A stretch of DNA of 42,429 nucleotides from Nitrososphaerota archaeon (GTDB taxonomy: Archaea > Thermoproteota > Nitrososphaeria > Nitrososphaerales > Nitrosopumilaceae). The first letter of the stretch is position 1; the number at the start of each line of letters is the position of its first letter. The position numbers were made by a program, and so were the translations under genes. Location: NCBI GenBank assembly GCA_028867595.1, contig JAGWGB010000005.1, forward strand, positions 53,574 to 96,002, given 5' to 3'. Below the pieces are notes generated by a model. The model did no database searches, was not told the origin of the DNA, and saw only the letters and a list, made by a program, of their open reading frames with translations. This document shows positions 5,317-19,014 of the stretch, piece after piece.

Positions 5317-6138
5317 CTACACCTTGTGACTGTGATTATGATTGTGGTTGTGCATGTGCATCTGCATGGCTGACTCTGAATATGTCTTCAACAAATCTTT
5401 GTTTGAGAAAAACTCATCTTTCTCGCCATGGAAAAACAAGTCTCGGTTCATACATGCCACTTTGGTTGCATGATCAGAGATTGCAGTAAGATCATGCGAA
5501 GCCCAGATTATAGTAATTTTATTTTCCTTGTTTATCTTTCGAAGTACTGAATAGAATTTATTTTGCACTTCCATGTCAACACCAGTTACTGGTTCGTCAA
5601 GTATCAGTAAGACAGGTTCTTTGACAAGAGCGCTTGCAATGAATGTGCGTTGTTGTTCCCCTCCCGAGAGCTCGCTAATTCTGCGATTCCTCAACAAGTC
5701 TAGCCCTACAATTTCAAGTACTGTCTCTATCTTTTCACTATTTTTGCTTGATGCACCAAATATTCTGTTCCAAGAACAACCGCAATTTTGAATCAACGCT
5801 GCACCTTTTTTCAGTTTTTTTTCAGGCAAGAGTCCCATCTCTACGACATCATATACAGTGGCAGGAAAATTTGATTCAAAATTTACTTTTTGCGGTACAT
5901 AGCCTACCATGGGCAGTAATGATTCGTATTGATTTCCCTCATAGCCAAATAACTTGATTTTTCCTTGATACTGTTGCAATCCCAAAATTGCCCTAAATAA
6001 TGTAGTTTTACCAGCACCGTTTGGCCCAACTATTCCCAGCAAGTCTCCTTCTCGCACACTAAACGAGATCTTGTTTATGGCAAGAGACCCATTATGGCTT
6101 GCAGATACATTTTCTACATCAAGTACGTTCATTGGCAT
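5317..6138 (-). CDS. znuC: Metal ABC transporter ATPase (ZnuC type) with histidine-rich tail
   Basis: 273 residues. The Walker A motif GPNGAGKTT lies at residues 38-46, with the signature LSGGEQQR and Walker B LLILDEP further on, followed by the switch histidine in WASHD. The last 16 residues hold a run of alternating His with Met and Asn (five His-Asn or His-Ser steps), which looks like a metal-binding tail. The gene overlaps the end of znuA by 10 bases; the second ATG at 6132 would give a 4-base ATGA overlap and is equally plausible as start. The product powers the importer from the cytoplasmic side. Confidence 0.94.
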   Translation of the reverse strand: MPMNVLDVENVSASHNGSLAINKISFSVREGDLLGIVGPNGAGKTTLFRAILGLQQYQGKIKLFGYEGNQYESLLPMVGYVPQKVNFESNFPATVYDVVEMGLLPEKKLKKGAALIQNCGCSWNRIFGASSKNSEKIETVLEIVGLDLLRNRRISELSGGEQQRTFIASALVKEPVLLILDEPVTGVDMEVQNKFYSVLRKINKENKITIIWASHDLTAISDHATKVACMNRDLFFHGEKDEFFSNKDLLKTYSESAMQMHMHNHNHNHSHKV

Positions 6139-7124
6139 CCCATCGCGTCTTTGAGGTTACCTAAGTTTTGATACCATTTGTCTATGAAAGTAATTCCCTC
6201 CTTTTGCTCTGTTTGGTTTATTCCCTCAAGAGGACTCAGTATTCTTACCTGTGCACCTACATCATCTGCCAAAGTTTCAGCAAGTTTTGGATCTGCAAGA
6301 TCTTCAGCAAAAATTATTTTCACATTGTTGGTCTTGGCAATGTTTTCTACTCTTTCTATATCCTGAGGAGCAATCTCAGCCTCTGGCGCTATTCCCGATA
6401 TCCAGACATCAGTCAGGTTGTATCTTTGTGCAAAGTAATTGAATGCATTATGAAATGACACAAAAGTGTGCGTTCTGCAGTTTGACAGCCCAGACTTGAT
6501 GTCTTTGTCTAGCTTGTCTAGTTTTGCAATGTATACATTTGTGTTGTTTTCATAATATTTGGCATTTGCAGGATCAGCTTTTTCCATTGCATCTCCAATG
6601 TTTCTGACCTCTTGCTCTGCAAGTATAGGATCGTTCCAAACATGCGGATCCTTTCCTCCCTGTGCTATGACAGGCCCAGCTTCATCTTGTGCCATGCGTT
6701 GTACGTCCGCATCCTGCATTTCTATTCCCTCAGATGCTTTGACAAATGTAGTATTTGGAAAATTTCCAGTAGACAAAAACGTTGGAATGAACGCTTCTAC
6801 GCCCGCCCCGTTGTAGATGAAAAGTTGAGAGTTTTGAACATCTTGCATCTGCTGTGTTGGAGGTTCCCATCCGTGTGGCTCCTCGCCAATTGGAATGAAG
6901 ACGCTGACATCAGCCTTGTCTCCGCCTATGTTTTTTGCAAATTCATACATTGGGAAAAAAGATGCTATCACTTGGATTTTTTTTGATGTACTTGCATTAT
7001 TGTTTGCCAAGTTTGTTTGAACATTATTTGGAACAAAAACGTCCGAGCTTGTAATGACAACTGCAATAACTATGACAATGGTAATTCCACCGCCTATTGC
7101 CGCAGTTTTTTTTCCAGAGCTCAA
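6129..7124 (-). CDS. znuA: Metal ABC transporter substrate-binding protein (ZnuA type)
   Basis: 331 residues with an N-terminal membrane segment (about residues 9-27) that anchors or exports it. Metal-site motifs of the cluster A-I binding proteins are visible in order: His in PHGWEP, His in DPHVWNDP, His in FVSFHNAFNYF, and an acidic residue in FAEDLADPK. No histidine-rich loop is present between the first two motifs, unlike many ZnuA proteins. The start is TTG at 7124: TGA lies two codons upstream, and no later start keeps the leader. It heads the operon znuA-znuC-znuB, divergent from the NikR-like regulator. Zn or Mn is the likely cargo; the zinc-type call is inference. Confidence 0.92.
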   Translation of the reverse strand: MSSGKKTAAIGGGITIVIVIAVVITSSDVFVPNNVQTNLANNNASTSKKIQVIASFFPMYEFAKNIGGDKADVSVFIPIGEEPHGWEPPTQQMQDVQNSQLFIYNGAGVEAFIPTFLSTGNFPNTTFVKASEGIEMQDADVQRMAQDEAGPVIAQGGKDPHVWNDPILAEQEVRNIGDAMEKADPANAKYYENNTNVYIAKLDKLDKDIKSGLSNCRTHTFVSFHNAFNYFAQRYNLTDVWISGIAPEAEIAPQDIERVENIAKTNNVKIIFAEDLADPKLAETLADDVGAQVRILSPLEGINQTEQKEGITFIDKWYQNLGNLKDAMGCQ

Positions 7125-7139
7125 TATTCATTTTATCGT

Positions 7140-7176
7140 ATTATTATTAATAAATCTATAAAACGTTAATAATAAT
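7140..7176. promoter_or_regulatory. Inverted-repeat operator candidate between znuA and the NikR-like gene
   Basis: Two perfect 11-base half-sites, attattattaa (7140-7150) and ttaataataat (7166-7176), face each other across 15 bases. This resembles the spaced palindromes bound by NikR-family tetramers, for which the E. coli site is a 6-base half-site with a 16-base gap. It sits 16-52 bases upstream of the znuA start, where bound protein would block polymerase. The region is AT-rich, so some repetition could be chance. Confidence 0.6.
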
Positions 7177-7185
7177 TATTGCTAA

Positions 7186-7209
7186 ACTTATAAGATAGTT
7201 AATAATAAT
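7186..7209 (+). promoter_or_regulatory. Promoter of the NikR-like gene with a third operator half-site
   Basis: A TATA-like box (cttataag, about 7188-7195) is centred about 25 bases before the ATG at 7216, so the transcript is probably leaderless. A third perfect copy of ttaataataat lies at 7199-7209, between the TATA box and the start codon and 33 bp (about three helical turns) from the copy at 7166. That placement suggests autorepression. Confidence 0.5.
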
Positions 7210-7215
7210 CACCCC

Positions 7216-7599
7216 ATGCCGATTGTATCAATCTCTTTGAATGATGAGATCCTCTCGGAACTAGACAAGCTACAAAAAACAATGGGATTCTCTGGGAGAT
7301 CAGAAATTATCCGTGCCGGAATTAGGAATTTGGTATCAGAAGAAAAACAGAGAGCAAACCTTTCAGGCCAAATTCATGCAATCTTGATGGTCATCCACGA
7401 TGAAGAGTCAGAGCAGGTAGTCACTGGAATCAAACACAACCACGAGGACCTGATTGGAACCCACCTTCACAGCAAGGTTGACGGGAACAAATGCATGGAG
7501 TTATTCTTGCTCCATGGGGATGCCGGAAAGATTGACATCATGACTAAGGACTTTAAGATAAACAAGAAAATGGAAAACGTCAAGCTTGTGGCAATGTGA
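7216..7599 (+). CDS. NikR-family ribbon-helix-helix metal-responsive regulator
   Basis: 127 residues. Residues 1-45 form a ribbon-helix-helix DNA-binding domain (strand VSISLNDEIL, helices including SGRSEIIRAGIRNL). The rest is an ACT-like NikR C-terminal domain. Aligned without gaps to E. coli NikR, the four nickel ligands His76/His87/His89/Cys95 correspond to His74, His85, Lys87 and Cys93, so one ligand is replaced by lysine, although His83 and His76 lie close by. Divergent placement against znuABC and the repeats between them suggest it represses the importer when metal is plentiful. The metal sensed may not be nickel. Confidence 0.85.
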   Translation: MPIVSISLNDEILSELDKLQKTMGFSGRSEIIRAGIRNLVSEEKQRANLSGQIHAILMVIHDEESEQVVTGIKHNHEDLIGTHLHSKVDGNKCMELFLLHGDAGKIDIMTKDFKINKKMENVKLVAM

Positions 7600-7635
7600 G
7601 CTAGATACAAATTAGATGGGACGTATCATATCACA

Positions 7636-8811
7636 ATGAAAATCTTTTACGCAATTCCAATCTTTGTGCTGCTTGGCATTCTGTTCCATGTGGCAAGTGC
7701 CGAAGTGTACATACCTGACAAAGAATATGCAGGATATTTTGACCATAACGGAATCTATGTTGTATATGGTTCTGTAAAAAATACAGAAAACCAACCAGTA
7801 ATTGCTAAAGTCCAGATCACGGTAAATAACGGAAATACCGCATATTCAGAGTCCCAGATTCTTCCCGTTATCTATTCATTAAATGATATGCCTTTCAAGT
7901 TCAAGTTTCCACAAATAACTAGTGGAGAACCGACACTGCAAAAACCCAATGTTTCTTTTATTCTTACCAATAGTAACCCGCTAAATATAGCGATAAACTA
8001 TGACAAGACCCTGATAAAATATCCCGATGGACACCTAACAGGATTTATTACAAATACTGGAAATAACACTGTACATAACATTGATGTCTATGCTTTGGTG
8101 CATGACAAGAATAACAATTATCTCGATGAGGTAGAAAACACTTGGACCATACCAACCCTCAATCCAGGAAGCAAGACCGAATTTGTCATGTATCCTGATC
8201 CTGCCGTTGCAAAAAATGTATATTATTACAGCTGCTTCATTCCTGGAACTGATTCCTCTGTAGAAATAGCTACCCCACTGAAGGGCAAGACATTCTACTT
8301 TAGCGTGCTCTCAATTGTGTATTTTACCAACCAAAAATTCAACGACAATGACAACTCAATCTCTTTTGATGCAGCCAATCCCTGGCAAATACCATATTAT
8401 GCCAATTTCATGTTTCCCGGTGATTCAAGTAATGGCAACTTCAAGGTATACGTAGACAGCAGCCAGATAAGCCCCTTGATAAGCATCGATAACGATACCA
8501 AAAACTGGCATGTTGCGTTCAATGTCAACTATGGCCAACACAAGATAACGATTTCAGGTTTTGATCCAAACTATGTTCCAAACAATGACGAATACTTTTA
8601 CCTCGACGCAAGATCTGCACTGATATCTTGGGCCGGCTTGTCAACGTTTACCATTTCAGATTCAAAACTGCTAGATGTACTTGGAATTCAAGGCCAACAT
8701 GTCCCATCATGGGTAAAAAACACTGTCAGTTTCATGGTATACAATAATGTGCCTGTCGATGATATTATCAACGAGATAAAATACCTAAAGCAATCTGGAA
8801 TAATAAAATAA
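7636..8811 (+). CDS. Secreted protein with CARDB/FxLYD-like region and degenerate C-terminal repeat
   Basis: 391 residues starting at ATG with a signal peptide (about residues 1-22, ending near HVASA). The segment around residues 38-60 (VVYGSVKNTENQPVIAKVQI) and again about 130-160 resembles the beta-sandwich domains found in archaeal surface proteins. The last 36 residues (VPSWVKN to IKYLKQSGIIK) are a diverged copy of the WVKxxAxWW repeat in which the Trp pair is lost. It starts 36 bases after the NikR-like gene, so co-transcription is possible. Function unknown; extracellular location is inferred. Confidence 0.78.
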   Translation: MKIFYAIPIFVLLGILFHVASAEVYIPDKEYAGYFDHNGIYVVYGSVKNTENQPVIAKVQITVNNGNTAYSESQILPVIYSLNDMPFKFKFPQITSGEPTLQKPNVSFILTNSNPLNIAINYDKTLIKYPDGHLTGFITNTGNNTVHNIDVYALVHDKNNNYLDEVENTWTIPTLNPGSKTEFVMYPDPAVAKNVYYYSCFIPGTDSSVEIATPLKGKTFYFSVLSIVYFTNQKFNDNDNSISFDAANPWQIPYYANFMFPGDSSNGNFKVYVDSSQISPLISIDNDTKNWHVAFNVNYGQHKITISGFDPNYVPNNDEYFYLDARSALISWAGLSTFTISDSKLLDVLGIQGQHVPSWVKNTVSFMVYNNVPVDDIINEIKYLKQSGIIK

Positions 8812-8815
8812 TTAT

Positions 8816-9748
8816 CTAAAGTCCCTTTTCATTTAGAACCAATGCAAGCAAGGCAGCACGCGTGTCTTTCCCATATTGAGCCTGCTTGAAATATTTTGCA
8901 TTGTCTGTGGAATCAAGTTTGTGCGAAATCTCATCCAGACGGGGTAGTGGATGCATGATTATGACATCATTTTTCATTTTCTTTAAAAGGTCAGGCCCAA
9001 TCTTGTAGCTGCCCTTTACCTTCACATATTCTTCCATGTCAGCAAACCTTTCCTTTTGTATTCTTGTCACATATACAACATCAAGGTCATCGAGATTTTC
9101 CTCGAGGTCTGTTGCTTCTGTATACGGAAGTTTTTTTCTTATCTCGTATGTCGAGTCTGAGCGAATTTTCAGAGAAGGCGGAGATATCAATTTGACATCT
9201 ACCTTATAGTTGCTCAACGCATACAAAAGAGAGTAGACCGTTCTTCCATATTTCAGGTCACCCACTATGCCGATTTTAAGACCATCAATTTTCTTCTTTT
9301 CCTTTCTAATTGTATAAAGGTCAAGTATGGCCTGTGTTGGGTGTTCTTCTGTTCCGCTGCCTGCATTGATAAGAGGCTTTTCTGAAACTTCGGCTGCAAA
9401 CCTGCTTGAGCCGTCAAGCTGGTGTCGCAGTACAACGACATCAGAGTAGAGAGACATTATTCGTACCGTATCAGCAAGGCTTTCGCCCTTTTTTGCAGAA
9501 GATGAAGACGCATCAGCTATGCCAAGGGATGTGCCACCCAATGAGGCCATTGCAGCTTCAAAGCTTAGTCGTGTCCTAGTGCTTGGTTCAAAGAAGAGAT
9601 ATCCAAGAGTTTTTCCTCGCGCAAGTTCTCTTCTCTCGTTTGGGTTCATTGCAATTATTTTGTCAGTGGCTTGGAAAACTTCCTCAAACTTTTGTTTATC
9701 AAAATCGCGTACCGAGACAATATCTTTTTGGAAAAAAGTATTGCTCAT
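8816..9748 (-). CDS. pyrB: Aspartate carbamoyltransferase catalytic subunit
   Basis: 310 residues, the usual length. The carbamoyl-phosphate motif FEPSTRTRLSFE lies at residues 53-64, with the Ser/Lys loop residues around 84-87 and the HPTQAILDL motif in the first domain. The enzyme joins carbamoyl phosphate and aspartate in the first committed step of pyrimidine synthesis. It is divergent from pyrI across only 42 bases instead of forming the common pyrBI operon. Its 3' end converges on the secreted protein gene with a 4-base gap. The start is ATG at 9748. Confidence 0.97.
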   Translation of the reverse strand: MSNTFFQKDIVSVRDFDKQKFEEVFQATDKIIAMNPNERRELARGKTLGYLFFEPSTRTRLSFEAAMASLGGTSLGIADASSSSAKKGESLADTVRIMSLYSDVVVLRHQLDGSSRFAAEVSEKPLINAGSGTEEHPTQAILDLYTIRKEKKKIDGLKIGIVGDLKYGRTVYSLLYALSNYKVDVKLISPPSLKIRSDSTYEIRKKLPYTEATDLEENLDDLDVVYVTRIQKERFADMEEYVKVKGSYKIGPDLLKKMKNDVIIMHPLPRLDEISHKLDSTDNAKYFKQAQYGKDTRAALLALVLNEKGL

Positions 9749-9759
9749 CGCAGTTCACT

Positions 9760-9768
9760 ATTATATAC
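9760..9768 (+). promoter_or_regulatory. TATA box for pyrI in the pyrB-pyrI spacer
   Basis: The sequence attatatac is centred 26 bases before the pyrI ATG, ideal for a leaderless transcript. Read on the other strand it also gives TATATAA, but only about 16 bases before the pyrB ATG, too close for a normal leaderless start. The pyrB promoter is therefore unclear. Confidence 0.5.
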
Positions 9769-9790
9769 TAGTGGTACAAAAACTATTCCA

Positions 9791-10252
9791 ATGTCAGAAT
9801 CGGACCTAATTGTTCGAAAGATCAAAAATGGCACAGTAATTGATCACATTGAATCTGGAAAAGGCATCAAGGTTCTCAATGCTCTTGGCATAGATGGAAA
9901 AGACGGCAATGTAATCACAATAGCGCTCAATGTACCAAGTTCAAAGGTTGCAAAAAAAGACATCATAAAGGTGGAAAACAGATTTTTGCAGGACTCGGAT
10001 ACAAACAAGCTTGCGCTCATAGCTCCAAAAGCAACTGTCAACATAATCAAGGAATACAAACTTGTAGAGAAGAGGCGTGTTACGCTACCAAACGAGATAG
10101 AAAGAATATTTCGCTGCTCAAATCCTGATTGCATATCAAACAGCGATGAGGACATTGACCCAGTAATGGATGTAGTTGACAAGACAGGCTTGGTTCTAAG
10201 ATGTAGGTTCTGTACCAGAATATTGGATGTTAACGAACTAAAGTATTATTGA
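9791..10252 (+). CDS. pyrI: Aspartate carbamoyltransferase regulatory subunit
   Basis: 153 residues from the ATG at 9791, which gives the canonical N-terminus and follows a TATA box. The nucleotide-binding domain covers about residues 5-95. The zinc domain follows with Cys109, Cys114, Cys138 and Cys141 (CX4C then CX2C), which holds the regulatory chain to the catalytic chain. It gives allosteric control of PyrB by nucleotides. The gene converges on the ATP synthase operon with 11 bases between stops. The open frame extends upstream to 9671, but that part overlaps pyrB and is rejected. Confidence 0.96.
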   Translation: MSESDLIVRKIKNGTVIDHIESGKGIKVLNALGIDGKDGNVITIALNVPSSKVAKKDIIKVENRFLQDSDTNKLALIAPKATVNIIKEYKLVEKRRVTLPNEIERIFRCSNPDCISNSDEDIDPVMDVVDKTGLVLRCRFCTRILDVNELKYY

Positions 10253-10263
10253 TTTTTGAAGAA

Positions 10264-12279
10264 TTATTTTTCTTTTGACTGTAGCTCATACTGATCGTAT
10301 GTGTATTTCCTTGCTGTTCCAAATGGCCTAAATGGCCTTCCGTTTCCGTGGTAGAACTTGGAGAAAAATTCCACGTAGATCAACCTGGCTCCCTGTATTC
10401 CAGGCTCGAACACACCAATTATGATATTGAATATGTGTCCAATGAAAATTATGATTGTTCCAAGTATTATGAATGGTATCGAGTGATGCAGTGTCTTGAT
10501 GAAGATATAGTCAATCACGTCAGCAAGAATTACAGATGCAAGCAAGATTCCAACAAGTCTTGTATACGACAAGATATGGCTTACTATGGACGGCAGCTCC
10601 ATGATTGCCCTGACGCCCTCACCGTAGAACATGAGACCAATTCCTGCAAGCATTAGGCCTACGTAGCCAATTCCTTCCACGTGGTGTATCGGGTTGACGT
10701 GTTGGTGATGCAGTAGTGCAAGTCCTGTTAGTACTACTCCCCATCCAAAGAGCAGCCATCCTCCCTTGCCAATTGCATGTTTCTTCTCTCCTTCCCTTAT
10801 TGTATTTAGTATGCCAAGAATTAGTCCAAATGTTACCATTCCAAGTCCGATGTATCCAGATATTAGCAATAGTTTTCGCAGTCCAGTGATAGGATCAAAG
10901 AACGCTCCGCTTGCTGGCAAGTGCAATCCAAATGTAGCATTGAGGTAGCTGAACAGGTATACGTTAGGATGGAATCCAAAGTACAAATTGAACACAAACC
11001 CCAGTCCCATTGCAATGATTGCACCTGGTGTCATGGCTTTTGCAAGCTTTACCATCTGCCGCGGCTTGAGTATGGTTAACGCAAACTTGCGCAGCGGTGT
11101 TGGCATGATGTTAAAGTTCTTTTTTCCTCCCTCTACTCTTCTAATCACCCATCTTGATACTAGCAGTATGACAAGGCCATAACCAAAGTCTCCTATCATG
11201 AGTCCATAAAATATTGGAAAGAGAGTGCCAAAGATCAGGGTTGGATCAAATTCTTTTCCTGACGGCAGAGAGTAAAATCGAATAAAGGCCTCAAAGAGTT
11301 TGTATCTCTTCGGGTTATCAAATAGCGTTGGTGGATTTTCGTCAGTATCAAGCACAAAAAGCAAGGTTCCCTTTGCATGACTGTCAAAACTATTCTTTAG
11401 CTGGTCTACCTTTGATTTTGGAATCCATCCTTCCAGAGCAAAAGAGTCCGAAGTGACCCCAAGGTTGTCTACCACTTCAAGTTTCTTGTTCTCAATTTCC
11501 AGTTGTTCTTCAATGCATGCAATGTCTACATAGTGACTTTGCGAGATCTCTGCAAGTTGCTTGTCGATTGCATTTATTTTCTGTGTGATCTCGCTTTGCT
11601 TGTTCTTTAGGCTCTGGGCAAGCTCGGCAGCCTTTCCTTTCAGCTTTGGAACAGCTTCAAGTTTTACATTATACTCTTGAACTACAGTAGCCAGTGCATG
11701 CGGTGGAAAGTTTGGAAAAGTAACCAGTATGAGCAGTGTTGTTCCTTTCCCTTCCTTTGAATAAAGAAATACGTCTTGGCTGTTTACGTCCAGTGCCTGC
11801 TTGAATCCAGCAAAGCTTTTCGGATCTATTCTGCCAAAGTAAGAGTGCGCAGATGAAAGCTGCAATACGTTAAAGTCTTCAGGAAAGAATGAAAACTCTT
11901 CAACTAGCTTGGCGTGGTTCTCGGCTTCTTTGAGATGTGTCAAAAGGCTTTCTCTTTCTCTTTCAAGTGATGCAACCTTTGTGTCCACATCAATGGATCT
12001 TGCCTTTGTCAGTAGTTGCTCAGAAGAGCCAAACCTCTGGCATTGTGTAATAGGTACTGGCGGCAGGATTGTCTTGAGCGACTTCATTCTTAAAAGCTGG
12101 TCAGAGACTTGCCTGTACTCTCCATCATCTCTCTCGTTTCTCAGCATGGATGCAACATCTTTTGAGAGTGGTTCCAGCTGAATTGTGTTCATGTCGTGAA
12201 GAATTGAGACCACAGTCTGCCTGTCTTTTCGCAGTCCTAGCACGGCAATGCGTGCCATTGGTATGGGTTTTAGAACCAA
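10264..12279 (-). CDS. atpI: A-type ATP synthase subunit I (membrane stator a-subunit)
   Basis: 671 residues in two halves: a soluble, partly coiled-coil N-terminal part (about 1-340, with coiled coils near 90-110 and 225-270) and a membrane part with seven or eight helices (about 350-645). The helix with SYTRLVGILLA carries the essential arginine of the ion channel. With the K ring it carries ions that drive rotation. It is the last gene of the operon. TTG at 12279 fits the 2-base gap after subunit H; ATG at 12258 (MARIAVLGL) is an alternative. Confidence 0.96.
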   Translation of the reverse strand: MVLKPIPMARIAVLGLRKDRQTVVSILHDMNTIQLEPLSKDVASMLRNERDDGEYRQVSDQLLRMKSLKTILPPVPITQCQRFGSSEQLLTKARSIDVDTKVASLERERESLLTHLKEAENHAKLVEEFSFFPEDFNVLQLSSAHSYFGRIDPKSFAGFKQALDVNSQDVFLYSKEGKGTTLLILVTFPNFPPHALATVVQEYNVKLEAVPKLKGKAAELAQSLKNKQSEITQKINAIDKQLAEISQSHYVDIACIEEQLEIENKKLEVVDNLGVTSDSFALEGWIPKSKVDQLKNSFDSHAKGTLLFVLDTDENPPTLFDNPKRYKLFEAFIRFYSLPSGKEFDPTLIFGTLFPIFYGLMIGDFGYGLVILLVSRWVIRRVEGGKKNFNIMPTPLRKFALTILKPRQMVKLAKAMTPGAIIAMGLGFVFNLYFGFHPNVYLFSYLNATFGLHLPASGAFFDPITGLRKLLLISGYIGLGMVTFGLILGILNTIREGEKKHAIGKGGWLLFGWGVVLTGLALLHHQHVNPIHHVEGIGYVGLMLAGIGLMFYGEGVRAIMELPSIVSHILSYTRLVGILLASVILADVIDYIFIKTLHHSIPFIILGTIIIFIGHIFNIIIGVFEPGIQGARLIYVEFFSKFYHGNGRPFRPFGTARKYTYDQYELQSKEK

Positions 12280-12281
12280 GT

Positions 12282-12605
12282 CTATACCTCTTTTAGCAAG
12301 TTATCAATTATTTCTCGCACAGTTGGCGCATCAATCCTTGCAGAAACTGTCTTTGATTTTGCCGTGGCATCCTCAATTATTTTTTCTGTCTCTGCCGATG
12401 CCTTTTTCCTAGACTGCTCTGTGCTTGATTCCACTAGCTTTTCCCCGTCACTTTTTGCGGTAGTAATTGATTTAGATACATAGCTTTCAAAATTTCTAAA
12501 TTCCTCTGAAACTTTTTTCTTGTGTTCGTCTATTTGTGATTGAATTCTGTCCTCTGCCTCCTTTATTTGCTTGAGGGAATTGACGTATTTTTCTGCAGAT
12601 GACAT
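12282..12605 (-). CDS. atpH: A-type ATP synthase subunit H (peripheral stalk)
   Basis: 107 residues, almost entirely charged heptad-like coiled coil rich in Lys, Glu, Ser and Ala, as expected for the H (G-type) subunit that pairs with subunit E in the peripheral stalk. The ATG at 12605 lies one base after the stop of the 41-aa ORF, and subunit I follows after 2 bases. Assignment rests on coiled-coil character, size and position in the operon because this family is poorly conserved. Confidence 0.8.
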   Translation of the reverse strand: MSSAEKYVNSLKQIKEAEDRIQSQIDEHKKKVSEEFRNFESYVSKSITTAKSDGEKLVESSTEQSRKKASAETEKIIEDATAKSKTVSARIDAPTVREIIDNLLKEV

Positions 12606-12606
12606 T

Positions 12607-12732
12607 TTAAACTCCTAGAAAGTGTCTCCCAGCATATAGCACTAGAGCAACGGTTCCAAAGATGTTTCCAAACTTGAAAGCCCTCATTATCATGTAGAAC
12701 TTTTTCTGCTGTTCGTTCTTAAAGCTAGGCAA
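12607..12732 (-). CDS. Small 41-aa membrane ORF between ATP synthase subunits D and H
   Basis: TTG at 12732 to TAA at 12607 encodes 41 residues, starting with PSFKNEQQKKFYMIMRAFKF after the initiator. A basic, Gln/Lys-rich head is followed by one membrane segment (about residues 22-41, GNIFGTVALVLYAGRHFLGV). The TTG overlaps the subunit D stop region by 8 bases (TTGCCTAG), and the ORF ends one base before the subunit H ATG. Subunits C and D also start at TTG. It fills what would be the only large gap in the operon. Its position after D matches ahaG in the Methanosarcina mazei operon ahaHIKECFABDG, but homology is not shown. Confidence 0.65.
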   Translation of the reverse strand: MPSFKNEQQKKFYMIMRAFKFGNIFGTVALVLYAGRHFLGV

Positions 12733-13393
12733 CTATCTCCTTCTCCTTTTTTTGCTGGGCCTCTTGTTCTCTTTCGCCCATCTTTCTCTTGACTGTTTTT
12801 AGCATGATGAAAGTGTCTCGCTCCATTTCGTCCAATCTGAATGTAATGAACTTTACTGCTGCCTGCAGTCTTGGTATGAATACATTTTCTATTGCATTTG
12901 ATTTGCGTTTTGTCTTTTCTATTTCAAGCAAGAGCTTGCGCAATGCAGTTTCTTTTTCTGCAACTTCAAGCACCATCTTGTGAACATTTTGGTACGCCTT
13001 TATTGCCTCATTGATTGATGGAGGAAGCTCAAGGAGGTGTTCTACCAATGCATTCTCGCTTTGTCCCCCGCCAATCTTTGGAATTTTTACTCCCATTACA
13101 TTTTTTGAGGTAATCTGCAGTTTGTTTAGTTGTGGAATCTTCATTGCTTCATTTTCAAGTCTCATCGAGCCTGCCAGCATCTCTGCCATCTTTATGCTCT
13201 GGTAACCCTTGATAAGCTCCGCTTGGAGTGCGGTTCTAAGAGAGGCAGCAGTCTTGCTTGTATTGAAAAATTCTAAAATCAGAGCCTGCCTTTTCAGCTT
13301 GAGTAGTTTTAGCCCTTTTTGTGCTATCTTTATTCTTTTTTTTGTGCGGATGTATTCGAGTCGGGTCGGTCTGATGTTAAGTACTGACGGCAA
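12725..13393 (-). CDS. atpD: A-type ATP synthase subunit D (central stalk)
   Basis: 222 residues, with long N- and C-terminal helices typical of the D rotor shaft. The opening motif (SVLNIRPTRLEYIRTKKRIKIA) is highly characteristic. It transmits rotation between the A3B3 head and the membrane ring together with subunit F. The start is TTG at 13393, two bases after subunit B stops. The Lys/Glu-rich tail overlaps the start of the 41-aa ORF. Confidence 0.95.
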   Translation of the reverse strand: MPSVLNIRPTRLEYIRTKKRIKIAQKGLKLLKLKRQALILEFFNTSKTAASLRTALQAELIKGYQSIKMAEMLAGSMRLENEAMKIPQLNKLQITSKNVMGVKIPKIGGGQSENALVEHLLELPPSINEAIKAYQNVHKMVLEVAEKETALRKLLLEIEKTKRKSNAIENVFIPRLQAAVKFITFRLDEMERDTFIMLKTVKRKMGEREQEAQQKKEKEIVA

Positions 13394-13395
13394 CT

Positions 13396-14787
13396 CTACT
13401 TTCCACCTGGGCTTGTCCTCTTTCGGTATTTTTCGATAAATTCAGGCTTGATGCGGTTTAACTCAGAGTCTGTAAGTTCGCTTAGCAATTCCCATCCGAT
13501 ATCTAGAGTTTGCTCAATTGATCTATTCTCGTCCATTCCCTGGTTGACAAACTTTCTTTCAAAGTTGTTGGCAACCTTTAGGAACTTTCTGTCAAGGTCG
13601 CTTAGAGCTTCTTCGCCTACAATGGCTGCAAGTGCTCTTGCATCTTTTCCTTGTGCATAAGTGGAATAGAGCTGGTCTGCAAGGCTTCGGTGGTCTTCTC
13701 TTGTCCTTCCCTTTCCGATACCTTGGTTCATCAAACGTGAAAGGCTTGTCAGCACATCTACTGGCGGATGTATGTCTCCCCTGTGAAGGTCTCTGCTCAT
13801 GACAATCTGTCCCTCTGTGATGTATCCTGTAAGGTCAGGAATTGGGTGAGTGATATCGTCTGCCGGCATGGTTAGGATTGGAATCTGTGTTACAGAGCCG
13901 TTTCTGCCCTTGATCTTGCCTGCTCTTTCATAGAGGGAGGCCAAGTCAGTATACATGTAACCTGGATATCCTCTTCTTCCAGGAACTTCTTCTCTTGCAG
14001 CTGAAATTTCTCTTAATGCCTCGCAATAGTTTGTCATGTCGGTCATGATTACAAGTACGTGCATGTTTCTTTCATATGCAAGATATTCTGCGGTAGTTAA
14101 TGCAAGTCTTGGAGTAAGCAAACGCTCCATTGATGGATCTGATGACAAGTTTAGGAATAGAGATGTTCTGCCAAGTGCGCCGCTTTCCTCAAATTGTTTT
14201 ACGAAAAAGTTTGCCTCTTCACTTGTAATTCCCATTGCTGCAAATACTACTGAAAAGTTTTCAGATGTGTTGAGCACCTTTGCCTGTCTTGCAATTTGTG
14301 CTGCAAGCAAGTTGTGTGGAAGACCGGCACCGGAAAAGACTGGAAGCTTTTGTCCTCTTACCAGAGTATTCATTGCGTCAATGTTTGACATGCCGGTCTG
14401 GATGAATTCAGATGGCTCTTCTCTTGAATATGGATTGATACCAGAACCTACCAAGTCTACCTTGTGTTTTGAAACTATTTTGGGTCCGTTGTCTCTTGGA
14501 TTTCCAAGACCGTCAAAGACTCTGCCAAGCATGTCGTCAGATACTGCAAGCTGTGCAGTCTCGCCTAGGAATTTCACTGAAGTTCCGCTGGTGTTCAGTC
14601 CTAGTGTTGGACCGAAGACCTGAACCACTGCAAGACCCTGCCTTGTATCAAGAACCTGACCCTGTCTTCTCTCGCCGTTTACAAGTTTTATCTCTACAAT
14701 TTCACCATAAGCCGCATTATCCACTCCTTGCACAAACATTAGAGGACCGGCAATTTTGTCAATCGTCTTGTATGATATGGTGGACAT
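13396..14787 (-). CDS. atpB: A-type ATP synthase subunit B (non-catalytic)
   Basis: 463 residues, the normal length. It has the alpha/beta fold of rotary ATPases without a functional Walker A lysine, in its place the stretch [11 protein letters not shown]. Family stretches such as [19 protein letters not shown] and [12 protein letters not shown]-type loops are visible. It forms the A3B3 hexamer with subunit A and contributes the arginine-bearing non-catalytic interface. The ATG lies two bases after subunit A stops. Confidence 0.97.
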
Positions 14788-14789
14788 CT

Positions 14790-16553
14790 CTAGTGTGTAA
14801 CCTCCACTAACAGATTGCTAAATTCTTGCTGCATTTTATTCTGAAAGTCCTTGACCAGTTGTTCTACTTGGTCTTCTTTTGTCCATTTTATCTTTGATAT
14901 CATCTTTCTTGATTCTAATGCGCCTACCTTTGAAGACGGAACTCCTTTCTTGATTGCCTCTGCCTCCATCTTTCCAAAGTCTATGATTGCAGCAAGCATG
15001 AGGAATTGTTTTCTGATTGAGGTGTACGTATCCACGTCATCATATGCACTTTGCTGCAGATAATCTTCCCTAATTGAGCGTGCAGTGTCAAGAACACCCT
15101 TTTCTGGTTCTGGCAGTGCATCGTATCCCACAAGCTGAACAATTTCTTGCAATTCAGATTCTTTCTGCAGGATCTCAAGTGCTTCCTTTCGCAGACCTAT
15201 CCATTCTGCTGCAACGTGGTTCTTGTACCAGTCTCCCATGCCGTCTGCATACAATGAATAGCTTGTAAGCCAGTTGATTGATGGAAAGTGTCTTCTTGAT
15301 GCCAAGCTTGCGTCAAGTGCCCAGAAGACCCTTGTTACTCTAAGTGTATTTTGTGATACTGGTTCTGAAAAGTCTCCACCAGGAGGAGATACTGCACCTA
15401 CAAGAGTAAGTGAGCCGACACGCTCTTCAGGAGATATGACAATTGCTTTGCCACCCCTTTCATAAAATTCTGCAAGTCTTCTACCAAGATAAGCTGGATA
15501 TCCTTCTTCACCTGGCATTTCTTCAAGTCTGCCTGAAATTTCTCTTAATGCCTCTGCCCATCTAGAAGTGCTGTCTGCCATCAATGCAACACCGTATCCC
15601 ATGTCACGATAGTATTCTCCCATCGTGATTCCGGTGTAGATGCTTGCCTCTCTTGCTGCGACAGGCATGTTAGAAGTATTAGCTACAAGAATTGTGCGCT
15701 CCATCAAAGGTCGCTTTGATTTTGGATCCTCAAGTTTTGGGAAGGTTGAAAGAACTTCGGTCATCTCGTTTCCTCTTTCGCCGCATCCGACATAGACAAT
15801 TACATTGCTGTCTGCCCACTTGGCAAGCTGTTGCTGTGTTACTGTCTTTCCACTTCCAAATGGGCCTGGGATTGCTGCAGTTCCACCCTTTGCAACTGGG
15901 AAGAATGTGTCAAGCACTCTCTGTCCAGTGAGAAGTGGCTCCTCTGGAGGAAGTTTTCTGAGAACTGGTCTTGGAGTTCTTACAGTCCACCAGCTTGAAA
16001 GACCAATGTCTGTCTTGGTGCTGTTTTGTACTGTTGCAACAATATCGTTTACTGTAAACTTGCCTTCAGAAATTTCAGATAACTGTCCCTCAACATTGTA
16101 TGGTACCATTATTTTGTGCATGATGAGCGGAGTCTCTTGGACCTCGCCGATTATTTCTCCTGGTGATACGCTGTCACCTTTTTTCTTTAATGGAACAAAG
16201 TCCCATTTCTTGGTTTGATCAAGCGCAGGGATTACTTTTCCTCTGCTGATAAAGTCACCACTCTGTTCCCTTAGGACATCAAGTGGTCTTTGAATTCCGT
16301 CATAAATTGAAGTAAGCAGTCCTGGGCCAAGCTGCATTGAGAGCGGCCTTTTTGTATTGGTTACCTTCTCACCTGGGCGCAGACCCGTTGTATCTTCATA
16401 AACTTGTACTGTTGCCTTGTTTCCTTCTAGTCTAATTATCTCGCCTACTAGTCCCATCTCTCCTATACGGACGACATCGAACATTTGGGCTCCCTCAAGT
16501 CCACTAGCGATAACTACCGGACCCGAAATTCTTGAAATTATTCCATCAGCCAT
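14790..16553 (-). CDS. atpA: A-type ATP synthase subunit A (catalytic)
   Basis: 587 residues. The Walker A P-loop GPFGSGKT lies at residues 230-237 and a roughly 90-residue bulge typical of A/V-type catalytic subunits precedes it (about 115-195). The catalytic region with [11 protein letters not shown] follows the P-loop. It makes or hydrolyses ATP in the A3B3 head. The length is normal, so no intein is present although A-subunit P-loops are frequent intein sites. It sits 9 bases downstream of subunit F. Confidence 0.98.
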
Positions 16554-16562
16554 TTACTATCA

Positions 16563-16901
16563 TCAACTTGTAGGGATACTTATTCCTAACACTCTCTTTG
16601 CCAGTGCCGCAATTGACTCTTCTTGAATGTTTCCTTCCATGGCCGGCATAAAAAGGACCAGCGGTTCTATTGATGCCTCGATCTTTTTTCGAAATACTGC
16701 CGGAAGGGCATTTCTTACAGCATCGCTTGCAATGATAAGGCTAAACTTTCCTGATGAATACAAGTCTTGGACAGTTTTGCTGGCATCTTCGCCACTTACT
16801 ACAAACGTGTCCTCGATTCCAAGTAGACTGTATCCTATCACTAGTTCACGCTCTCCTACCACAGCGATCCTGCCACTTGATTGTGTTTTTTGAGTCGACA
16901 T
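16563..16901 (-). CDS. atpF: A-type ATP synthase subunit F
   Basis: 112 residues with a Rossmann-like fold start (GRIAVVGERELVIGYSLLGI) and a C-terminal helical region, the expected form of subunit F. It binds subunit D in the central stalk and can affect ATP hydrolysis. The ATG is 4 bases after the subunit C stop, and subunit A follows after 9 bases. Confidence 0.92.
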   Translation of the reverse strand: MSTQKTQSSGRIAVVGERELVIGYSLLGIEDTFVVSGEDASKTVQDLYSSGKFSLIIASDAVRNALPAVFRKKIEASIEPLVLFMPAMEGNIQEESIAALAKRVLGISIPTS

Positions 16902-16905
16902 TATC

Positions 16906-17970
16906 TCACTCTAGCAATAACGATGTAATGTGTTCTGTTGAAAGATTGTAGCGCTTGCCATATGCAATTCTTTTGATATTTTCGCGCTCCTGTTCCATCT
17001 TGATGATAAAGTAGAATATTGTTCCAATTGATAATGCAATGTTTTTCAATTTGCTCACAAATTCGGAATTTATGAATTTATCCAACGCAACCTCGAAATC
17101 AATAAGGCTCTTTGATTTTTTGTATTGCGCCAATGCATTGACTAGCATAAAGCGATTCTCTACTCTTCCTACAATTTCTGGCACGTCTTTTGCTCCATAG
17201 ATATCCAACAGTTCATTTTTTGATACCATTCCTCCATCGATTATGTGCTTGCTTAGAAGTTCTTTGTCAAGGTTAGATTCTTTTGCCTTCAAAAGGCTTA
17301 GGACATTTTTCTTGTCTATCTCTGCTCTGACAAGGCCGCGAATTATTCCCTCGTCTCCCTGGAAAAACTTGAGCGACTCCAATAGGTTTTGGTAATAGTG
17401 GGCTTGTAGTGCGGACATCATGGGTCCAAGATCCCCTGTTTTTTGGTATATCTCGAGGTTTTGCATCAGGATGGTACCATAGTTGTATTTTACAAGCTGA
17501 TTTACCACTCCGTCTACGTTATTCTGCGATAGTATGACTTTCATCTCATCGTGCGATATGTTTCCGGCAGAGATTCCTGCTGGGACATTTCTGCTTGATA
17601 CAAGAAATGATTCAACTTCAGTGATTGGCCTGTTCATGCTTTTTGAGGAAAGTATTAGCTCTATGTTGTACATATCCCACTTTGAAAGAAAGGCTCGTAC
17701 GGCAGACTTGCCGTTAAACGGTGTGGCCTCAAGGGCAATCTTGTTTACTTGAACTAGGTGCCTGTTTAATGCAACTTCCAAAAGGTCTGCATCTTTGAAT
17801 AAAGTGGCAGCCTTTTCAATTTCTGGGCCATACCAAGTTGGTTCGAGAATTTTTATCATTTCTCCTTCGTCTTTTGCCTTCATCAAGTTCTGCATTGTTT
17901 CCTTTGATAGAAGGTTTAATGAAATTGCTTGTAGGCGACCAAAAGATGATGCATATTGCGATGTTGGCAA
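16906..17970 (-). CDS. atpC: A-type ATP synthase subunit C (rotor collar)
   Basis: 354 residues, all helical, with the repeated three-helix layout of subunit C/d that sits as a collar between the central stalk and the K ring. Family stretches include YGPEIEKA-type loops near residue 46 and NVLSLLKAKESNLD near residue 220. The start is TTG at 17970, directly abutting the TGA of subunit E. Confidence 0.93.
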   Translation of the reverse strand: MPTSQYASSFGRLQAISLNLLSKETMQNLMKAKDEGEMIKILEPTWYGPEIEKAATLFKDADLLEVALNRHLVQVNKIALEATPFNGKSAVRAFLSKWDMYNIELILSSKSMNRPITEVESFLVSSRNVPAGISAGNISHDEMKVILSQNNVDGVVNQLVKYNYGTILMQNLEIYQKTGDLGPMMSALQAHYYQNLLESLKFFQGDEGIIRGLVRAEIDKKNVLSLLKAKESNLDKELLSKHIIDGGMVSKNELLDIYGAKDVPEIVGRVENRFMLVNALAQYKKSKSLIDFEVALDKFINSEFVSKLKNIALSIGTIFYFIIKMEQERENIKRIAYGKRYNLSTEHITSLLLE

Positions 17971-18525
17971 TCACATTCTCTCCGAAAGGAAACTTTTGAT
18001 TTGGTCTTCGTGAGTTCGCAGTAGTTCATCAAAAGTAAGATCAAGTTCTTTTGTTCCTTCCTTGTTCTCTGCAACTATGCCGCCAAGGGTTTTGATGGAC
18101 TTGCCTATTGTTATTCCCATGTCTTTCAGTGCGGCCTTGTCCTCGTCTCTGCAGTGAACTACAATGTTTTGCCCAAGTTTTTTCTTTGAACTATTTACCA
18201 TGGTTTCAAGCGCCTTTTTGTATTGAGTGCCTGCAGTATAATTTTCAATTTCTTTTTTGATTGTATCAAATGCTGACTGCATGTTTTCGTTGATTGCATC
18301 AAACATTATTTTTTTTGCTTGAAGTTTTGATGCTTCAATTATTCTTGCATATTCCCTTTCCGACTTGACTTTTGCCTCGTTTGCAAACTTTTCCTGAATC
18401 TCTTTTAGTGTGATATCAAGTTCTGTTTGAAGTTTGGATTTTTTTTCTGCTAGGTCCTTATCGAGGCTATCCAGTTCCTTTTTCTTTCTATTCTCTATCT
18501 CAAGGAGGAAAGTCTCGATGCTCAT
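17971..18525 (-). CDS. atpE: A-type ATP synthase subunit E (peripheral stalk)
   Basis: 184 residues. The first 85 or so form a long charged coiled coil (IENRKKKELDSLDKDLAEKK) and the rest is a mixed alpha/beta head ending in a conserved Glu/Asp stretch (LDLTFDELLRTHEDQI). It pairs with subunit H in the peripheral stalk. It follows subunit K after 13 bases and abuts subunit C. Confidence 0.92.
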   Translation of the reverse strand: MSIETFLLEIENRKKKELDSLDKDLAEKKSKLQTELDITLKEIQEKFANEAKVKSEREYARIIEASKLQAKKIMFDAINENMQSAFDTIKKEIENYTAGTQYKKALETMVNSSKKKLGQNIVVHCRDEDKAALKDMGITIGKSIKTLGGIVAENKEGTKELDLTFDELLRTHEDQIKSFLSERM

Positions 18526-18538
18526 TTTACTGAAACCA

Positions 18539-18883
18539 CTACAGGATACCTAGCAGTAAGATGATTCCCAATACGAATCCAATGATCCATAATGTTTCGG
18601 GAATGACGAAGAAGAATAGTACCTGACCAAACTTCTCCGGTTTCTCTGCAATGATACCCATACCGGCAGCACCAATACCTTGCTGTGCATTACCAGTACC
18701 AATCAAACCACCTGCAATTGCAATAGCTGCGGCAATAGCAAGTAATGGTTTTGTCAAACCGCTGCTTGTGGCAGCAGTATCTGCCGCAAATGCAGAATGA
18801 GTTGTAAAGAAGGTCGATAATCCAATTGTCAACCCCGCTGTTATGATGATAAGCGATAATTTTGAGCGCTTGTTCAGTACCAT
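18539..18883 (-). CDS. atpK: A-type ATP synthase subunit K (proteolipid ring) with N-terminal signal peptide
   Basis: 114 residues. Residues 1-33 look like a cleavable signal peptide ending HSAFA. The mature part holds one two-helix hairpin: helix 1 about 45-78 with the small-residue run and Gln67-Gln68, a polar loop AEKPEKFG (79-86), and helix 2 about 87-113 with the ion-binding Glu96 in IPETLW. One hairpin per subunit implies a ring with a high ion-to-ATP ratio suited to synthesis. It is the first gene of the operon, behind a good TATA box. The H+ or Na+ preference is not settled. Confidence 0.95.
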   Translation of the reverse strand: MVLNKRSKLSLIIITAGLTIGLSTFFTTHSAFAADTAATSSGLTKPLLAIAAAIAIAGGLIGTGNAQQGIGAAGMGIIAEKPEKFGQVLFFFVIPETLWIIGFVLGIILLLGIL

Positions 18884-18906
18884 CAGTTATGGCTCATTTG
18901 TAGACG

Positions 18907-18915
18907 GTATATTAA
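18907..18915 (-). promoter_or_regulatory. TATA box of the ATP synthase operon
   Basis: The minus strand reads TTAATATAC, centred about 28 bases before the subunit K ATG at 18883, the spacing expected for a leaderless transcript. No other promoter-like site was seen inside the tightly packed operon. Confidence 0.5.
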
Positions 18916-19014
18916 GCTAATTCTTACAAAGCATTGACGCATTTTTTCAAAAAATAAGAAAATTTCATGGTGCGATCATCGTACAATTTAGCTGCGATAT
19001 TGCAATATCTAGAA

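Follow-up and report, generated by a model that had tools for sequence, protein, structure and literature searches.

A conserved single-helix protein encoded between subunits D and H of the V-type-like ATPase operon of Nitrososphaeria, a probable minor subunit

The Vo membrane sector of the eukaryotic V-ATPase contains subunits e and f and the helix of ATP6AP1, very small accessory parts of one or two helices. Among archaeal enzymes, the closest described case is AhaG of M. mazei, a very hydrophobic 6.3-kDa peptide whose standing as a subunit is unsettled, as it appeared as a band after heterologous expression, is missing from several archaea and is hard to detect by tryptic mass spectrometry (PMC4350412). 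T. acidophilum and its acid-mine relatives are reported to have no AhaG orthologue (PMC3750248), which has no bearing on the gene described here. The operon type that concerns us encodes the V-type-like ATPase known from acidophilic and deep-marine ammonia-oxidising archaea (AOA). Passages of the main text of PMC6863869 describe this enzyme as having nine subunits and as distinct from the A-type ATPase of neutrophilic AOA, with subunits and gene order unchanged between acid-soil and deep-marine lineages. Those same passages hold it to be the trait by which AOA were able to enter acidic soils and the deep ocean, and they make no mention of a gene between D and H.

Such a gene is present in the window, by which we mean the whole analysed stretch of 42,429 nucleotides from a Nitrososphaerota archaeon. 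Its ATPase operon runs on the minus strand in the order K-E-C-F-A-B-D-[S]-H-I (Table 1), where S is our name for a frame encoding the 41 residues MPSFKNEQQKKFYMIMRAFKFGNIFGTVALVLYAGRHFLGV. The operon itself was known (PMC6863869, main-text passages); S has no match in Pfam, NCBIfam or the PDB.

Table 1. Features of the ATPase operon in the window
Feature	Position	Strand	Evidence and remarks
S, 41-aa single-helix membrane protein	12607..12732	-	TTG start, TAA stop; conserved at 91 loci; AlphaFold2
SD-like GGAG motifs for S	12746-12743 and 12740-12737	-	sequence; inside D coding sequence
SD-like GGAG for H	12612..12615	-	sequence; within last S codons
ATPase subunit D (central stalk)	12725..13393	-	PF01813, E 4.7e-48; overlaps S by 8 nt
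ATPase subunit H (peripheral stalk)	12282..12605	-	position and coiled-coil character; adjoins S in relatives; no Pfam H-family match above cut-off
ATPase subunit I/a (membrane stator)	10264..12279	-	PF01496, E 1.7e-24
ATPase subunit B	13396..14787	-	PF00006, E 6.9e-79
ATPase subunit A	14790..16553	-	PF00006 and PF16886
ATPase subunit F	16563..16901	-	PF01990
ATPase subunit C	16906..17970	-	PF01992, E 2.5e-51
ATPase subunit E	17971..18525	-	PF01991
ATPase subunit K (rotor ring)	18539..18883	-	PF00137

Packing and coding character of the small gene

The preliminary description had presented S as packed like a real operon gene, with a TTG start, an eight-base overlap with D and a one-base gap to H, and on re-reading the coordinates are exact. 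The TTG (12732-12730) overlaps the D stop (12727-12725) within the string TTGCCTAG, and a single A (12606) separates the TAA of S (12609-12607) from the ATG of H (12605). TTG also starts C and D, as had been pointed out, and I likewise. The two GGAG motifs within D lie 10 and 4 nt upstream of the S start, and this arrangement recurs among 61 representative homologues: an SD-like GGAG, GAGG or AGGA lies 3-12 nt 5' of the S start in 59, and a motif of a looser set falls within the last 20 nt of S in 57. The start codon is TTG in 58 and ATG in three, and it stands at -8 from the D stop in 34 (as in the window), at -11 in 25 and at -4 in two. The overlapping start, together with the SD-like motif, suggests translational coupling.

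A 41-residue frame alone means little, because 118 open reading frames of at least 30 aa overlap the surrounding 13 kb (6000-19000). What leads us to take S as a real gene is the conserved frame in its homologues. In tblastn, S has matches in Nitrosotalea-type and other genomes; with loci fetched by subunit D, it was recovered at 91 loci, representing 61 distinct proteins. It lies directly 3' of D at all 91, and the slot between D and H is kept wherever H is identifiable. All 61 distinct homologues keep the S frame free of stops across its last 37 codons, and each of the other five frames is open in 0-10 of them. The dN/dS ratio (NG86, pairs of at least 70% protein identity, overlapping codons excluded) is 0.07-0.10, with values of 0.067 for pairs sharing 90-100% of their residues and 0.10 in both the 80-90% and the 70-80% bands. 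Thus the frame sought in relatives is present at this position, the synonymous/non-synonymous comparison reveals codon-position bias, and the claim of a real operon gene is borne out. A chance or non-coding frame is ruled out by the dN/dS ratio and by a frame that stays open solely in the S register. As judged from these alignments, S is a genuine conserved protein-coding gene under purifying selection as a protein.

The tight overlaps and the SD-like motifs inside S could also be read another way, with the frame serving as a non-functional or cis-acting translated spacer that couples translation of D to that of H. We consider this very improbable: selection acts at the amino-acid level while synonymous sites change freely, which in the main refutes a spacer, and the residue pattern is retained down to about 45% identity. 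Mean identities are 66% for S and 61% for H (57 loci), 73% for I and 83% for D, so that by aligned sequence the conservation of S is on average about equal to, or slightly above, that of subunit H. The lead does not extend to pairs of intermediate distance, where S is the better conserved of the two in 9 of 25 cases.

Distribution with the V-type-like operon

We compared S (profile A1) and D (the window protein) over the same 300 Nitrososphaeria genomes. A V-type-like D (59-100% identity to that of the window) occurs in 67 genomes, and S accompanies it in 67 of 67; other D types (at most 49% identity) occur in 213, with a credible S in none, the best chance matches there having E values of 0.003-0.005 and one of them containing internal stops. 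The remaining 20 have no D match. In the 11 most diverged of the 67, a distance of 62-136 nt separates the D match from the start of the S match, and in one genome (G325) D and S are on two contigs. The association has no exception in either direction, and its Fisher P of 2e-66 overstates the independent evidence, because the sampled genomes are related.

S also travels with the operon when the operon is transferred, as indicated by one genus (g11), in which a V-type-like D and S are found only in G200 and G280, both of which also keep an A-type D. Carriers retain S throughout, including fragmented MAGs and horizontally acquired copies. Thermoplasmatota are one proposed donor group of the V-type-like operon. 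The S profile, which recovers S in known carriers, found none in other Thermoproteota classes, and searches of Halobacteriota (148 genomes), one DPANN phylum (34 genomes) and viral contigs were likewise empty. The earlier suggestion that S might be lineage-specific therefore holds for the V-type-like operon across the class Nitrososphaeria, but needs amending in that S also follows that operon through its horizontal transfer and that A-type operons are without it.

Related and unrelated small genes in the slot after D

In two deep-branching groups (f4 and f18; loci L137-L145), the S homologue has 61-80 aa, with an N-terminal extension of consensus about P[KP]-[FY]-YWA-x-x-PPKP placed before an NPQQ[RK]+FY-like core and the helix; this Tyr/Trp- and Pro-rich stretch (about YYWA..PPKP) is missing from the AOA form. 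At the other end of the protein, an early TAG in two loci of one lineage (L026 and L091, G038) removes the last residues, so that S ends in ...YAIKHFL and its C-terminal GV may be dispensable there. Four genomes whose D is 44-49% identical to that of the window (L149-L152) have a distinct one-helix frame of 39-41 aa at or just after the D stop, with sequences such as RNFWLLTMLVNL... and MKSSGSDTRRGWLVRNFWLLTMLVNLVILL.... In profile comparison this family scores higher with S than all 60 of 60 shuffles that preserve hydropathy; as the alignment is short and holds four sequences, we grade its kinship to S as suggestive.

The preliminary description also likened S to ahaG, and part of that analogy stands. 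In M. mazei (ahaHIKECFABDG) a small hydrophobic gene, for a product of about 6 kDa, directly follows D, and among Halobacteriota a one-helix frame of 46-64 aa, as judged by hydropathy, lies within about 100 nt after D at 23 of 66 distinct sampled loci, with three further loci having one about 440 nt after D. These frames (from the Halobacteriota loci L180-L242) form a recognisable AhaG-like family, three examples of which gave no Pfam or NCBIfam model above cut-off. S shares with the family its position directly after D, a size of about 50 aa and a build with one membrane helix. The two differ in that H and I come after S, while ahaG is the last gene of its operon, and in that AhaG-like proteins mostly carry P-[ED]-x-x-x-R and a helix start rich in Trp, as against F-x-N-x-QQ-[RK]-K-[FL]-[YF] in S.

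Position and architecture thus agree, but membership in the AhaG family is not supported. Compared with the AhaG-like profile by hhalign, S scores within a hydropathy-preserving column-shuffle null in both modes, with 8/60 and 11/60 shuffles doing as well in local mode and 31/60 and 38/60 doing so in global mode; this score gives no demonstration of homology. S could still belong, as a remote member, to the AhaG family of methanogens and Archaeoglobi, which would make it an ancient archaeal subunit no longer recognisable by sequence; the shared slot, size and one-helix build speak for this, as does the intermediate-looking third family in the same slot of the Nitrososphaeria with D at about 45% identity (L149-L152). 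Weighed against the null result, we regard such descent as possible but doubtful. It is a question of ancestry, and is compatible with S being a subunit.

A-type AOA operons fill the slot differently, with a conserved frame of about 43 aa (MGKEEIKKIVEDSKHSLESEHENFAQSVKDDLSSFKKKALEKV; for example L153, G046:C1:1547964-1548092, minus strand) after D and before K. This frame resembles S in slot, length and a start near or overlapping the D stop, but its product is charged and soluble, with no membrane helix. It is present in 102 of 151 genomes of the family and in none of the listed genomes of the window's genus, and in genomes with both ATPases (G007, G009 and G036) the two small genes coexist, either one in the operon type to which it belongs. 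The epsilon chain of Sulfolobus offers a comparison; the A-type frame may be its counterpart, or may bear on the H reported missing in neutrophilic AOA. Different genes, specific to the operon type, appear to occupy the slot after D in A-type, V-type-like and methanogen operons, and the slot thereby offers an easy way into a part of archaeal rotary ATPases that has received little study.

Build of the protein and its proposed role in the ATPase

S has a conserved head, F-x-N-x-Q-Q-[RK]-K-[FL]-[YF]-x-I-x-R, and in an alignment of 26 members F4, N6 and N23 are invariant, the last being an Asn near the start of the membrane helix, and Q9, K11, I15, R17 and G40 nearly so. AlphaFold2, given the 26 homologues, predicts one helix over residues 7-39 with a mean pLDDT of 90, and the basic head and single membrane helix proposed at the outset are supported by this model and by the charge. 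Net charge averages about +4 ahead of the membrane segment and about +1 in the last eight residues, so that by the positive-inside rule the N-terminus is likely inside. Conserved residues were not found to gather on one helical face (p = 0.6), and a specific helix-packing surface is therefore not demonstrated; the best-conserved positions instead cluster in the head and in the first turn of the membrane part, at the cytoplasmic interface. Pfam and NCBIfam gave no match above curated cut-offs for the 26 homologues and hmmsearch of the PDB nothing convincing, so that in these collections S matches no known ATPase subunit. Its likeness to the small Vo parts of the eukaryotic enzyme would lie in being a very small accessory of a V-type membrane sector; with no sequence match in the PDB, homology with them is without support.

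Overall, we believe the best explanation is that S is a constitutive minor membrane subunit of the V-type-like ATPase, and we hold this to be probable. Translation of S would take place from its slot in the operon between D and H. The head would sit at the cytoplasmic membrane face and continue into one membrane helix, and the protein would pack against either the K ring or the stator subunit I/a, the conserved interfacial head suggesting a contact near the cytoplasmic face of one of these. There it may stabilise or seal the membrane sector, by analogy with small accessory subunits of other rotary ATPases. The V-type-like ATPase would then probably have a tenth part, left out of the published nine-subunit descriptions, as its genomic record points to.

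Small hydrophobic genes in ATPase operons act as assembly factors elsewhere, UncI/AtpI of F-type operons being the precedent, and a basic head with one predicted helix would be compatible with a factor that assembles or inserts the K ring or subunit I and is absent from the finished enzyme. Such an operon-encoded factor gives the same genomic pattern, though it might be lost more often, and S has never been lost in the 67 operon-bearing genomes and is conserved about as well as subunit H. The strict linkage to operon type, the retention through transfer, the tight translational placing of the gene between those for a rotor and a stator subunit, and the subunit-like conservation together lead us to favour a constitutive minor subunit over a dispensable assembly factor, which we judge unlikely. 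Less likely again, and in our estimate improbable, is a regulatory role, in which S would adjust coupling or prevent ATP hydrolysis in relation to pH or pressure, with its basic, Tyr/Phe-rich head sensing the membrane interface; conservation in S is highest in the head, the A-type operon has a different, soluble gene in the same place, and the operon type tracks acidity and depth according to passages of PMC6863869.

Should S prove to be a tenth subunit, the V-type-like ATPase is incompletely represented in the published subunit lists and models. A fuller proposal, tentative and held at somewhat less than even confidence, is that S is an uncounted tenth integral subunit solely of the Nitrososphaeria V-type-like ATPase, without homologue in other rotary ATPases, that was carried along in the operon transfers associated with life in acid soil and the deep ocean and is needed there for full function. 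The sole heterologous expression experiment, as described in passages of PMC6863869, used a codon-optimised synthetic operon; if S was unrecognised as a gene, codon optimisation would probably have destroyed it there.

Elsewhere in the operon, subunit K has a signal-peptide-like N-terminal stretch (MVLNKRSKLSLIIITAGLTIGLSTFFTTHSAFA|AD) followed by two membrane helices, and the K subunits of A-type AOA begin with a similar-looking stretch.
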